Below, piece by piece: positions 16,675 through 26,615 of a stretch of 34,869 bases of DNA. Position numbers and translations under genes: made by a program. Numbering within the stretch: position 1 is the first letter of the stretch; every line of letters starts with the position of its first letter. The notes beneath the pieces were generated by a model. It saw only the letters and a list, made by a program, of their open reading frames with translations, did not search any database and was not told the origin of the DNA. Location: the NCBI GenBank assembly GCA_017744795.1, contig JAGIAQ010000039.1:1-34869 (forward strand), in the 5' to 3' direction. The DNA comes from Niabella sp. Its GTDB lineage: Bacteria > Bacteroidota > Bacteroidia > Chitinophagales > Chitinophagaceae.

Positions 16675-16935
16675 ATGGGCATTTTATCTTGGATCATTTT
16701 CGGATTGATTGCAGGTGCAATTGCTAAAGCACTACACCCGGGTAAAGACCCCGGAGGTTGGATCGTTACCATTATTATTGGTATTGCCGGCGCTTTTGTG
16801 GGCGGTTGGATTGGGAATATGATGGGGTGGGGAGAACCGCACAGTTTCAGCATTAAAAGTTTTGCCCTTGCTATTCTGGGTGCGGTAATTTTATTATGGT
16901 TGTATGGATTAGCAACCCGAAAAAAAGAAGCTTAA
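16675..16935 (+). CDS. YeaQ/YmgE (GlsB) family small membrane protein
   Basis: The 86-residue protein is almost entirely membrane-embedded: three hydrophobic helices (LSWIIFGLIAGAIAKAL, WIVTIIIGIAGAFVGGWIG, FALAILGAVILLWLYGLA) joined by GKDPGG and a short polar loop, ending in RKKEA. This is the transglycosylase-associated (YeaQ/YmgE) family, which is linked to stress responses but has no known enzymatic reaction. The ATG at 16675 gives the family's normal length and the typical MGILSWIIFG start; an upstream in-frame ATG at 16612 would add a non-family Cys/Phe-rich tail. It is 90 bp after aroC and is followed by a strong terminator. Confidence 0.9.
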   Translation: MGILSWIIFGLIAGAIAKALHPGKDPGGWIVTIIIGIAGAFVGGWIGNMMGWGEPHSFSIKSFALAILGAVILLWLYGLATRKKEA

Positions 16936-20335: not shown

Positions 20336-20343
20336 TAGGTTTG
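20336..20343 (+). promoter_or_regulatory. Candidate -7 element directly before pncB
   Basis: TAGGTTTG matches TANNTTTG and ends only 4 nt before the pncB ATG at 20348, implying a leaderless or nearly leaderless mRNA. Confidence 0.45.
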
Positions 20344-20347
20344 AAAC

Positions 20348-21538
20348 ATGAACAAAAACGAACTCATTCTTCCGTCTGTTTCATTGCTGGATAACGATTT
20401 TTATAAATTCACCATGCAGTGCGCGGTGATGCAGCTGTTCCCAGATGTGCAGGCCCGCTACGCTTTTATTAATCGCGGTAAGCATGAATTTCCGGAAGGC
20501 TTTGGGGATGCATTGCAACAACAGGTGGAGCAGATGGCCGCCTTGAAGCTTACTAGAAAGGAGCGGGACTATCTTGTAAAGAACTGCCCTTATTTAAATG
20601 CAGCCTACCTCGATCTGCTTGCCGGCTATCAGTATGATCCGTCGGAAGTAAGTATCCGCCAGCAGGGAAAAGACCTGGAGGTAGTGGTGGAAGGGCATTG
20701 GTTCCGGACCATCCTGTGGGAAGTGCCGATCCTGTTTCTTATAAGCGAACTGTATTATAAAATGACCGGTCAGCAACGGGATCACGATGAGCAGGTAATA
20801 AAAAACACTATAGAAAAAACAAAGATCTATAAAGACCTCGATGTGCCGGTTGCAGAATTCGGCACCCGCAGAAGACACTCGTACCAGGTGCAGCAACTGG
20901 TGGTGGATACCCTGGCAAAACATGGAGGGAAAAGCTTTGTAGGCACCAGCAATGTGCACCTGGCGATGAGCTCCAACAAAAAACCGATCGGCACACATGC
21001 CCATGAATGGTTTATGTTTCACGGTGCCAAATATGGTTTTACAATGGCCAATAGCTTAAGCCTGGAGCATTGGTCGGATGTGTACCGTGGCGACCTGGGT
21101 GTGGCACTTTCTGATACCTATACCAATGATGTTTTTTTTGAACAGTTCGATAAAAAGTTTGCAAAGCTTTTTGACGGGGTGCGGCACGACAGCGGCGATC
21201 CTATCGTCTATGCCGAAAAAGTGATCGCCCATTATAAGAAACTAGGCATTAATCCGGCTTACAAGTTTATCATTTTTTCGGATGGATTAAATTCAGAAAA
21301 AGTAACAGAGATCACTCATGCAACAAAAGATAAAATAGGGATCTCCTTTGGCATTGGAACCAACCTCACTAATGACGTAGGGCTGGAACCAATGAATATT
21401 GTAATGAAGCTAACGGGCGTTCAATTAGATGGCCGGCGCTGGATCCCTACCGTAAAGCTTTCTGATGAAAACGGAAAACATACCGGTGAACCGGAAATGA
21501 TTGAACTGGCCAGGGAGGTTTTGGGCATTGAACATTAA
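20348..21538 (+). CDS. pncB: Nicotinate phosphoribosyltransferase
   Basis: The 396-residue enzyme joins nicotinate to PRPP, forming nicotinate mononucleotide in the NAD salvage (Preiss-Handler) route. Visible family motifs are LLDNDFYKFTMQ, EFGTRRRHSYQVQ, FVGTSNVHLAM, GTHAHEWFM (the phosphorylated His region), VRHDSGDP, FSDGLNSEKV and FGIGTNLTND. Length and order are normal for the bacterial PncB group. It stands alone between a repeat tract and a 226-bp gap. Confidence 0.95.
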   Translation: MNKNELILPSVSLLDNDFYKFTMQCAVMQLFPDVQARYAFINRGKHEFPEGFGDALQQQVEQMAALKLTRKERDYLVKNCPYLNAAYLDLLAGYQYDPSEVSIRQQGKDLEVVVEGHWFRTILWEVPILFLISELYYKMTGQQRDHDEQVIKNTIEKTKIYKDLDVPVAEFGTRRRHSYQVQQLVVDTLAKHGGKSFVGTSNVHLAMSSNKKPIGTHAHEWFMFHGAKYGFTMANSLSLEHWSDVYRGDLGVALSDTYTNDVFFEQFDKKFAKLFDGVRHDSGDPIVYAEKVIAHYKKLGINPAYKFIIFSDGLNSEKVTEITHATKDKIGISFGIGTNLTNDVGLEPMNIVMKLTGVQLDGRRWIPTVKLSDENGKHTGEPEMIELAREVLGIEH

Positions 21539-21764
21539 ATATATACGAATTAATTTATATTAAATATTTTATTTAAGCTTTTTCTAACGAAAAACCGGGC
21601 TGGTTGCAGTACCTTTGCGACGGTTTCAGGGAAAATTGTCTGTACTTTGTGAGCGGCTGAAATATCAATTGCGACTATTTTGTTCTGCTTAAATCCCCTA
21701 AATCGTACCAAACCTTATTATCGATTTTAATAATTAAAGTAATTAAAAAAGAGATTTTTTAACT
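21539..21764. promoter_or_regulatory. Upstream region of the L,D-transpeptidase-like gene
   Basis: A TACCTTTG box lies at 21610-21617, about 147 bp before the ATG at 21765, giving an unusually long possible 5' leader for this window. I see no recognisable riboswitch fold in it. Confidence 0.4.
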
Positions 21765-22526
21765 ATGGGGTCTGCTATTGTAAAAAAAATAGTGCCGGTA
21801 GTGCTGGTGATTATGGCGATGGTAACAAGTTCCTGGCGGTTTAATGAACCGGCAAATCTTGCAACATCCGAAAACGATTTTAAAGATATTACCGGATGGC
21901 ATTGGGGCAGGGGTTACGCTTTAGGAGGTGCATCATCCGCTTACGAATTGATGTACGACAGCCTGGGGCTGGATCTGAAGGGGCTTTCGGAACAAGCTTT
22001 TGTGGATGCCATGGAGGGTTTCGACGAATTGAAAAAAGAAGGTCTTCTGAAAAATGACTCGATCATAACCGTGATCGATTTTGATCAGCCCAGCATCAAT
22101 AAAAGATTGTATGTGGTGGATCTAAAACATTACCAGGTGTTGTTTAATACATGGGCTGCTCATGGAAGAAATTCAGGAAGCCTGATGGCAACTTCTTTTA
22201 GCAATGCCCTATCTTCAAATAAAAGCAGTCTTGGCTTTTATCTTACAGATGCGCCTTATTACGGGGGGAACGGCTATTCGCTTAAATTAAAAGGATTAGA
22301 ATCCGGTGTGAATGACAGGGCTATGGCCCGTGCCATCGTGCTGCACGGCGCGGATTATGTAAGTCAGTCGAGCATTGATGAACTGGGATACCTGGGGCGC
22401 AGCTTTGGTTGTCCCGCAGTGCCCCGGGCTTTGTGCCGCTCCATTATCGATGTCATCAAGGAAGGGTCGGTATTGTTTATCTACAATAGCGCTTATCATC
22501 TGGCAACCCGGTACACATTGGGCTGA
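21765..22526 (+). CDS. Murein L,D-transpeptidase catalytic-domain family protein
   Basis: The 253-residue protein starts with a signal-anchor or signal peptide (IVKKIVPVVLVIMAMVTSSW). Its C-terminal half holds IVLHGADYVSQ and RSFGCPAVP, the His and Cys (about Cys216) of a YkuD-like L,D-transpeptidase active site, here of the variant family where the domain follows a helical N-terminal region. Such enzymes form 3-3 cross-links or attach proteins to peptidoglycan in the periplasm. It has no LysM or other binding domain. A terminator follows, so it is probably monocistronic. Confidence 0.85.
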   Translation: MGSAIVKKIVPVVLVIMAMVTSSWRFNEPANLATSENDFKDITGWHWGRGYALGGASSAYELMYDSLGLDLKGLSEQAFVDAMEGFDELKKEGLLKNDSIITVIDFDQPSINKRLYVVDLKHYQVLFNTWAAHGRNSGSLMATSFSNALSSNKSSLGFYLTDAPYYGGNGYSLKLKGLESGVNDRAMARAIVLHGADYVSQSSIDELGYLGRSFGCPAVPRALCRSIIDVIKEGSVLFIYNSAYHLATRYTLG

Positions 22527-22556
22527 AGTCATTTTACGATCTGATATTTATTAATG

Positions 22557-22580
22557 CCAGGGTTATCCCTGGTTTTTTTT
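22557..22580 (+). terminator. Terminator after the L,D-transpeptidase-like gene
   Basis: CCAGGG-TTAT-CCCTGG followed by eight T. It lies between the transpeptidase-like gene and the acetylesterase and rules out an acetylesterase start at the in-frame ATG at 22554. Confidence 0.85.
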
Positions 22581-22631
22581 ATGTCTGCAATCAAAATAAA
22601 CGTAATTTTAAAACCCGAAAACAGATTGCCC

Positions 22632-24611
22632 ATGCCAAACAGATCATTAAAGACTACGCTTTGTTTTTTACTTCTTTTTACAGTTGCTCGCTCCGGCGCC
22701 ACGGTAAAGCTGCCGGCGCTATTTAGCAACAATATGGTTCTGCAGCGGCAAACGAATGCAGCCATATGGGGCACCGCCGCAGCCGGCAAAACGGTTAGGG
22801 TACAAACCTCCTGGAATAAACGCACCTATTGGGCTAAAGCCGATGCGGGGGGAAACTGGAATGTGAAAGTAGCCACACCGGTTTATGGCGGTCCGTATTC
22901 CATCAATATTACGGAAGAAAATACTATTACCCTGGAGAACGTATTGATCGGGGATGTATGGCTCTGTTCCGGTCAGTCGAACATGGAAATGCCGTTGTCC
23001 GGCTGGGGTAAAATAATGAATTACCAGCAGGAGATCGCCGCTGCCAACTACCCTGGTATCCGATTGCTGCAGGCATTACATGTAACCGCTAATACACCTG
23101 CAAACGACCTGGCGGTAAGAAACAACGGCTGGGATGTTTGCACGCCACAAACCATCGCTGAATTTTCAGCAACTGCTTATTTCTTTGCCCGGACAATTTA
23201 TAAAGAAACAAAGATCCCCATCGGGTTGATCCATAGTTCCTGGGGTGGCACAGTAGCAGAAGCCTGGACCAGTTTTGAAACGCTGCAAACGCTTCCGGAT
23301 TTTGCCGCAGCAGCCCAAAAAATAAAAGCTACGCCGGAGTTGAATAACGTATTATATGAGGAGCAAATGAAGGCGTGGAGCCTGAAGAAAAATCAGGCGG
23401 ATAGAGGATTGGTAGACGGCAAACCTGTTTGGGCGGCTGTGGATCTGAATACCGGCGACTGGCAGACGATGCAATTACCCGGTTTATGGGAAACGAAAGG
23501 ATACCCTGACCTGGACGGGGTGGTATGGTTCCGGAAAGAAGTAACAATACCTGAATCCTGGAGCGGCAAGGATCTTATTCTCAGTTTGAGCACGATTGAT
23601 GACGACGATATTACTTATTTTAATGGAGTACAGGTGGGCGCAACAACCGGTTATGATCATGACCGGGTTTACAAAGTGCCTGCCGGCCTGGTAAAAAAGG
23701 GAGCTAATTCTATCACGGTCCGTGTTACGGATAATGGAGGCGGTGGAGGCCTGTATGGGGAGGCTAAACAAATGTTCCTCGGCACAAAAGAAGGGCAGCA
23801 AATAGCTCTTTCAGGGAACTGGATCTCTAAAATTTCTTTTACGTTTAAAGATCTGCCACCAGCGCCGCAAAGCCCTCAAAATCCTAACCGCCCCGGGGTG
23901 TTGTATAACGCGATGATCCACCCGGTTACCCGGTTTGCTATTAAAGGCGTTATCTGGTATCAGGGAGAAGCCAATGCCGGCAGGGCCTGGCAGTACCGGG
24001 AGCTGTTTCCCGCGCTCATTCAGGACTGGAGGAAAAAATTTTCTTCGGGTGCGTTTCCTTTCTATTTTGTGCAATTAGCAAATTTCATGAAACGTGCCGA
24101 TCTGCCTGCCGAATCCCAATGGGCGGAACTCCGTGAAGCGCAATTAATGACCACCCGGCTTTCCAATACGGGGATGGCAACTATTATTGATATTGGTGCG
24201 GGCGATAACATTCATCCCAAAAACAAGCAGGAGGTGGGCCGGCGTCTGGCCCTGATCGCCTTAAATAAAGTTTATGGTAAACGGAATGAATATTCCGGTC
24301 CGTTGTACCGGTCGCAGCAAATAAACGGCAGTACTATTGTGTTGTCTTTTACGCATGCAAAGGGAATGAAAGCGAAAGACGGAGTGTTAAAAGGTTTTGC
24401 AATTGCGGGCTCCGATAAAAAATTTTATTGGGCAGAGGCGAGCGTTAAAGGCAATACGATCGTGGTCAGGTCGCCAGAGGTGAAAGCGCCGGTGGCCGTA
24501 CGTTATGCCTGGGCTGATAACCCGGAGGCCAACCTGGTAAACAGCGACGGGCTTCCGGCATCGCCCTTCAGAACCGATAATTGGGATGGGATTACAAAAG
24601 GGAAAAAGTAA
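22632..24611 (+). CDS. Sialate O-acetylesterase (SGNH/SASA) with jelly-roll insert
   Basis: The 659-residue exported protein has a signal peptide (KTTLCFLLLFTVARSGA) and an N-terminal beta domain. The SGNH hydrolase shows WLCSGQSNMEM with Ser116, GLIHSSWGGTVAEAW, VIWYQGEANAG and GAGDNIHPKNK (Asp/His). Between about residues 260 and 385 a galactose-binding-like jelly-roll is inserted (WFRKEVTIPESWSGKDLIL, FNGVQVGAT, ANSITVRVTDNGGGGG). Enzymes of this group remove O-acetyl groups from sialic acids or, in Bacteroidota polysaccharide loci, from acetylated xylan or pectin. The ATG at 22632 follows the terminator; the upstream ATG at 22554 lies before it. It precedes a second esterase by 54 bp. Confidence 0.9.
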   Translation: MPNRSLKTTLCFLLLFTVARSGATVKLPALFSNNMVLQRQTNAAIWGTAAAGKTVRVQTSWNKRTYWAKADAGGNWNVKVATPVYGGPYSINITEENTITLENVLIGDVWLCSGQSNMEMPLSGWGKIMNYQQEIAAANYPGIRLLQALHVTANTPANDLAVRNNGWDVCTPQTIAEFSATAYFFARTIYKETKIPIGLIHSSWGGTVAEAWTSFETLQTLPDFAAAAQKIKATPELNNVLYEEQMKAWSLKKNQADRGLVDGKPVWAAVDLNTGDWQTMQLPGLWETKGYPDLDGVVWFRKEVTIPESWSGKDLILSLSTIDDDDITYFNGVQVGATTGYDHDRVYKVPAGLVKKGANSITVRVTDNGGGGGLYGEAKQMFLGTKEGQQIALSGNWISKISFTFKDLPPAPQSPQNPNRPGVLYNAMIHPVTRFAIKGVIWYQGEANAGRAWQYRELFPALIQDWRKKFSSGAFPFYFVQLANFMKRADLPAESQWAELREAQLMTTRLSNTGMATIIDIGAGDNIHPKNKQEVGRRLALIALNKVYGKRNEYSGPLYRSQQINGSTIVLSFTHAKGMKAKDGVLKGFAIAGSDKKFYWAEASVKGNTIVVRSPEVKAPVAVRYAWADNPEANLVNSDGLPASPFRTDNWDGITKGKK

Positions 24612-26414: not shown

Positions 26415-26477
26415 AATCATTCTGAATAATTACTTTTTAAATCAGGATCTGTTGGAAAAAATTCAAAAAAGGGCTCT

Positions 26478-26492
26478 ATGTATTTAATACAT
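26478..26492. promoter_or_regulatory. Palindromic candidate operator upstream of the GMC oxidoreductase
   Basis: ATGTATT-T-AATACAT is a perfect 7-bp inverted repeat in the AT-rich divergent gap between clpS and the oxidoreductase. Its spacing suits a dimeric repressor, but AT-rich palindromes arise by chance, so the call is weak. Confidence 0.3.
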
Positions 26493-26615
26493 AATATTGT
26501 TCATGGGATTGTAAAAAAAATAATGGAGAATTGAATTTAAAGCAATATTTTTATAACGGTTTTTATGATGGTTGACAGACACTAACGATTTTGTGAATTT
26601 TTTAAAAACAATTTA

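Follow-up and report, generated by a model that had tools for sequence, protein, structure and literature searches.

The pncB–YkuD_2 locus

The window (the whole stretch of DNA analysed, 34,869 nucleotides, from genome G000, a member of a genus group with Niabella records) contains the pncB gene followed on the same strand by a gene for a protein of the YkuD_2 family (Table 1). With a score of 223.5 bits against a curated cut-off of 27, the match to the PF13645 profile identifies the product as a predicted L,D-transpeptidase-like cell-wall enzyme; this protein has no NCBIfam match, and a sequence search finds no solved relative at E 0.001. The N-terminus (MGSAIVKKIVPVVLVIMAMVTSSW) resembles a signal peptide, as judged by eye, and an in-frame stop codon lies directly 5' of the ATG, so that the start codon at 21765 looks right. 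Between the pncB stop codon and this ATG there are 226 nt, and purE is located beyond pncB, on the opposite strand. The YkuD_2 gene is followed by an intrinsic-terminator-like stem with a T-run, a type of site for which the scan is weak alone, with four in the window against 3.4 expected by shuffling. The listed start of the next open reading frame, 22554 (+), overlaps this site; the ATG at 22632 (+), which opens the signal-peptide-like sequence MPNRSLKTTLCFLLLFTVARS, is the likelier start.

Table 1. Features of the pncB–YkuD_2 region, with positions in the window
Feature	Position	Strand	Remarks
pncB, nicotinate phosphoribosyltransferase gene	20348-21538	+	directly upstream of the YkuD_2 gene
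Conserved promoter-upstream block	21539-21609	+	pncB stop to -7 box
TACCTTTG, putative sigma-A(Bfr)-type -7 box	21610-21617	+	fits TAnnTTTG; in 9/9 orthologs
Predicted 5' UTR, ~143 nt	21622-21764	+	start placed by box at -12 to -5
CAAACC, weakly conserved motif	21709-21714	+	letter comparison only; CAAACC, TAAACC, TAGACC or TAAATC in others; starts 44-57 nt before ATG
TTAAAAAAGAGATTTTTTAA, perfect 8-bp A/T inverted repeat, GAGA loop	21743-21762	+	2 nt before ATG
L,D-transpeptidase-like gene, 253 aa	21765-22526	+	PF13645 YkuD_2, E 1.4e-66
Intrinsic-terminator-like stem and T-run	22556-22583	+	terminator scan, letters checked

A protein search detects matches in 47 of 59 genomes, including the genome of the window; of the 30 loci fetched, 15 belong to the genus (the genus search covered 17 genomes, with the G003 and G014 loci outside the 15 fetched). 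In nine of these 15 loci (G000, G005, G006, G008, G010, G011, G012, G015 and G016), pncB is directly upstream. Among the other six, five have purE as the adjoining gene and no pncB in the fetched flank, and G001 has neither. The nine pncB-linked loci are the orthologs compared throughout.

The promoter-like box and the conserved block upstream

The sequence TACCTTTG matches exactly the sigma-A -7 consensus of Bacteroidota, TAnnTTTG, and its end lies 147 nt before the ATG. A first-pass annotation of this DNA held that it is the only promoter-like box, about 147 bp from the ATG, and the letters bear this out, with a single plus-strand TAnnTTTG in the entire gap between the genes. The longer form, TAnnTTTGC, occurs at the matching place in each of the nine orthologs (related genomes, not independent trials), which indicates that the box is more than a chance occurrence. 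For comparison, a 400-kb sample of G008 was used (20 stretches of 20 kb, with crude ORF calls from ATG of at least 100 aa and upstream regions of at least 30 nt), in which TAnnTTTGC is found in 31 of 209 upstream regions, against 4.9 after shuffling; the antisense strand of the same 209 regions gave 23, so that part of this excess is not gene-strand-specific.

A sigma-70 scan finds nothing near the box, and inspection of the window letters by eye shows no TTTG at the expected distance, around -33. The missing TTTG does not exclude a sigma-A promoter, because the -33 element is described, in the available text on Flavobacterium johnsoniae, as much less evident in that species (PMC6847099). The site thus resembles the sigma-A (sigma-ABfr) promoters of Bacteroidota in its exact TAnnTTTG, kept in nine orthologs, but differs from them in that, instead of a TTTG near -33, it has a conserved and apparently gene-specific sequence, TTTTTnGTAACAGAAAA, at approximately -43 to -28. 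With the -7 box present and the -33 TTTG absent, this is a candidate member of the sigma-A promoter class.

The block between the pncB stop codon and the box consists of an AT-rich stretch followed by TTTTTCTAACGAAAAA (21579-21594), for which the genus consensus is TTTTTnGTAACAGAAAA. In the nine orthologs, the stop-to-box distance is 71-75 nt, and the mean pairwise identity of this segment, 0.77, is given here along with that of the pncB end (0.78), the 16-nt box region (0.80), the mid-leader (0.41), the last 27 nt before the gene (0.70) and the first 180 nt of the gene (0.57). Of 13 neighbouring gene pairs tried, four were skipped for insufficient length or genome number and nine were scored on five to nine genomes each. 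The best 60-column stretch reaches 0.84 in the pncB–YkuD_2 space, compared to 0.25-0.59 in six of the other seven scored non-coding spaces and 0.80 in the seventh (26421-26615, five genomes); one of the six, on the bshC side, has a 31-nt part shared by all nine genomes that is nearly identical, and its score is unfairly low, as the remainder of the space is missing from six genomes. The block upstream of the box is, then, well conserved and not unique in its neighbourhood.

The space with the top score, 0.93, was left out of this comparison, since it holds a small coding gene. The small gene at 16675-16935 (+), with 86 codons, resembles NCBIfam PRK10457 (89.9 bits against a cut-off of 129), shows across seven genomes a mean DNA identity of 0.93 in a 60-column stretch, and is preceded by a conserved TTTGGCATGTTTTTT stretch, which we take to be reminiscent of a sigma-54 promoter. 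The seventh space, 26421-26615, is a divergent intergenic region before a GMC oxidoreductase gene.

Run against the 17 genus genomes, a model of the block built on sequence only yields nine strong matches, all at the orthologous places, among the 150 candidates scored per genome; the next best match has E 0.001 (150 of 486-1211 first-look candidates scored per genome). The block was accordingly dropped as a regulon element, with no additional strong copy among those 150 of 486-1211 candidates per genus genome. Another proposal, TAAC together with TAnnTTTGC as a general promoter class, was rejected as well, since in all four genomes examined the reversed control had more matches. Because strong matches are confined to the nine orthologous places and the TAAC spacing is not enriched in those four genomes, the block is probably gene-specific, a candidate UP-like element or operator. 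A TTTAGGTTT-like upstream motif, considered for a relationship to the AAACC motif of the leader, was discarded by eye, given no joint change in the G000 and G016 letters.

The YkuD_2 gene might alternatively be transcribed mainly by read-through from pncB, with the box contributing little. The retention of the gene pair in nine of the 15 fetched loci is compatible with this scenario, and so is the fact that no terminator-like site is listed between the two genes; the strong conservation of the box and of the block upstream, and the five genus genomes in which the gene adjoins purE with no pncB in the fetched flank, speak against it and make it improbable.

The predicted leader between the box and the start codon

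In the available text on F. psychrophilum (PMC9723704), the box occupies positions -12 to -5; taking the box at 21610-21617 in the same way, the transcript would start near 21622, with a leader of 143 nt. The same rule gives leaders of 117-160 nt in the nine orthologs. In each of the nine, 121-164 nt separate the box from the ATG, and an annotation error confined to one genome therefore does not explain the length. The long 5' leader proposed in the first-pass annotation, with a predicted start placed from the box, is supported by the shared placement of the box across these nine genomes. The accompanying contrast with a box-to-gene distance of 4-10 nt elsewhere in the window is selective: boxes located 4 nt (20336, +), 10 nt (7617, +) and 9 nt (7156, -) before an ORF agree with it, but those at 81 nt (3106, +) and 184 nt (8771, +) do not. 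In the G008 sample, TAnnTTTG is found in 67 of the 209 upstream regions, the nearest one no more than 100 nt from the ATG in 53 and farther in 14, against a chance level of 22.8 of 209 after shuffling, so that far boxes are often chance occurrences.

The median 5' UTR is 24 nt (mean 65) in F. psychrophilum (PMC9723704) and 32 nt in Bacteroides thetaiotaomicron, where 13.5% of mRNAs exceed 100 nt (PMC7366714), as far as the available parts of these two studies go. The leader is long, but it falls within a known length class, that of the long (>100 nt) 5' UTRs of B. thetaiotaomicron (PMC7366714, in part); as a difference from these, no riboswitch, thermometer or leader peptide was recognised here. 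A literature search found no publication on this YkuD_2 leader.

The least conserved piece in the nine orthologs is the mid-leader, which also varies in length. What the leader conserves is its position rather than its sequence, and the conserved signals sit outside or at the edge of the stretch from the box to the ATG that had been flagged originally, namely at 21539-21609 and 21743-21762.

The suggestion that an RNA regulator might lie in between is weakened by several results. An Rfam search at the gathering level has no match in the leader, and at a relaxed threshold yields three matches, far below the gathering scores, none of them credible. Folding of the G000 leader is indistinguishable from that of shuffled sequences (z -0.10 and, for the bare leader, +0.20). 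RNAalifold predicts no pair in the mid-leader, and the sole two-sided change is found in a five-pair stem inside the coding part. The comparison with homologs that the first-pass annotation had named as a check thus leaves the mid-leader unpaired and yields only a start-adjacent stem of six A-U pairs, with two one-sided changes to G-U and no two-sided change. A leader peptide was rejected: an ATG is present in seven of the nine leaders, with none in G000 or G012. The length of the leader and the negative folding z of the bare leader in eight of the nine orthologs (e.g., -1.36 in G016, -1.65 in G006 and, the lowest, -2.20 in G015) would fit a cis-regulatory RNA, be it a riboswitch, an attenuator or a leader peptide. 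Against the missing Rfam match, the G000 z near zero, and a mid-leader with 41% identity, variable length and no RNAalifold pair, such an element is highly improbable, and a riboswitch, in particular, is not supported by the leader sequences.

The other suggestion, a second, nearer promoter driving the YkuD_2 gene, could draw on two TAnnTTGY sequences in the G000 leader, at 21643 and 21676, this being the SM5 form of F. psychrophilum in the available text of PMC9723704. Both are absent from the other eight orthologs, and none of the nine leaders contains a second TAnnTTTG. A conserved second promoter of the TAnnTTTG or TAnnTTGY form is not supported by these comparisons, and we consider a nearer promoter quite improbable.

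The start-adjacent palindrome and the proposed control of the gene

An A-run/T-run palindrome is present next to the start codon in all nine orthologs, with run lengths A6/T6, A6/T8, A7/T6, A7/T7 or A8/T6, and is to be counted as one conserved element in related genomes, not as nine trials. All nine orthologs, and none of 209 G008 control genes, have the pattern A6-N2..6-T6 at no more than 30 nt from the ATG. When the count of stem pairs covers the upstream 28 nt together with the first two letters of the ATG, the orthologs have 8-9, and at least 8 are found in none of 210 G008 regions; with the upstream letters only, the orthologs have 7-9, and the G008 controls reach 7 in five of 210 and 8 in none. 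A search of four genomes for the exact pattern finds one place in G000 and one in G015, both at this gene, and two in G008, one at this gene and the other inside an ORF. The single place in G012 lies between ORFs of at least 90 aa, and the YkuD_2 gene of that genome has longer A/T runs, outside the exact pattern.

In the full leader at 37 C, the stem is predicted to form with a mean probability of 0.52-0.94 in six of the nine orthologs, and of 0.03, 0.32 and 0.40 in G016, G011 and G006, respectively. The AT of the first ATG, if this is the start, lengthens or keeps a 9-pair stem in seven of the nine, and six of these seven have a paired arm whose last letters are the AU of the AUG. RNA thermometers are AU-rich hairpins that mask the start region, and the A/U-only stem beside the AUG is similar; unlike in thermometers, the predicted pairing does not fall steadily on warming (0.30 at 15 C, 0.70 at 25 C and 0.77 at 37 C in G000), and the predictions for the nine orthologs at 15, 25 and 37 C follow no consistent trend, which may speak against a simple thermometer.

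Because the six consensus pairs include no two-sided change, RNA and DNA roles of the palindrome are indistinguishable. The palindrome and the TTTTTnGTAACAGAAAA site might be DNA operators of a dimeric transcription factor, acting by block or looping, with no role of the leader RNA itself. The symmetry of the palindrome, kept with no two-sided covariation, and the position of the conserved upstream block, before the predicted transcript start, are in line with this possibility. The two sites, however, share no obvious sequence by eye, and no further genomic copies point to a regulon (for the palindrome in four genomes, for the block among the 150 candidates scored per genome); we regard it as unlikely, if worth keeping in view.

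The box, its spacing, the pattern of conservation and the rarity of the palindrome, all directly observed, are best compatible with transcription from one sigma-A-type promoter, a 5' UTR of approximately 143 nt, and control at the promoter, perhaps together with a start-adjacent A/U hairpin or A/T operator, an interpretation to which we assign an about even chance of being correct. Under this single-promoter interpretation, transcription would start near 21622 and probably end near 22580, where the terminator-like site lies. The main control would probably be exerted at the promoter, via the AT-rich block and the TTTTTnGTAACAGAAAA site, the latter serving as an UP-like element or as the operator of a regulator, and most of the UTR would be a weakly constrained spacer. 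Translation initiation is probably tuned by the A6/U6 palindrome that abuts the AUG, such that a weak hairpin would keep output low until opened by ribosomes or an RNA-binding protein. The distant box is a real, if ordinary, observation, and control is most likely located at the two conserved ends of the region.

To our knowledge, Bacteroidota are a phylum without Shine-Dalgarno sequences. In F. johnsoniae, translation is tuned by secondary structure near start codons, according to the available text of PMC6847099. In a more specific version, which appears distinctly unlikely, the A/U-only hairpin would act as a translation switch particular to this gene: it would hold the start codon in a stem until a cold-shock-type protein or another RNA-binding protein opens it, so that cell-wall L,D-crosslinking would be set at the translation step. 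If the palindrome does control translation, it would make a simple system in which to study how Bacteroidota gate initiation when Shine-Dalgarno pairing is lacking; if not, the locus amounts to a conserved promoter with a long 5' UTR of ordinary kind.

The adjoining pncB gene presents an arrangement of its own. The sequence TAGGTTTG (20336-20348, +) starts exactly 12 nt before the pncB ATG, and TAnnTTTG is found at the same -12 position in eight of the nine orthologs, that of the window included. Placing this box at -12 to -5 puts the predicted pncB transcript start on the A of the ATG itself, which makes the pncB mRNA a conserved candidate for a leaderless mRNA.
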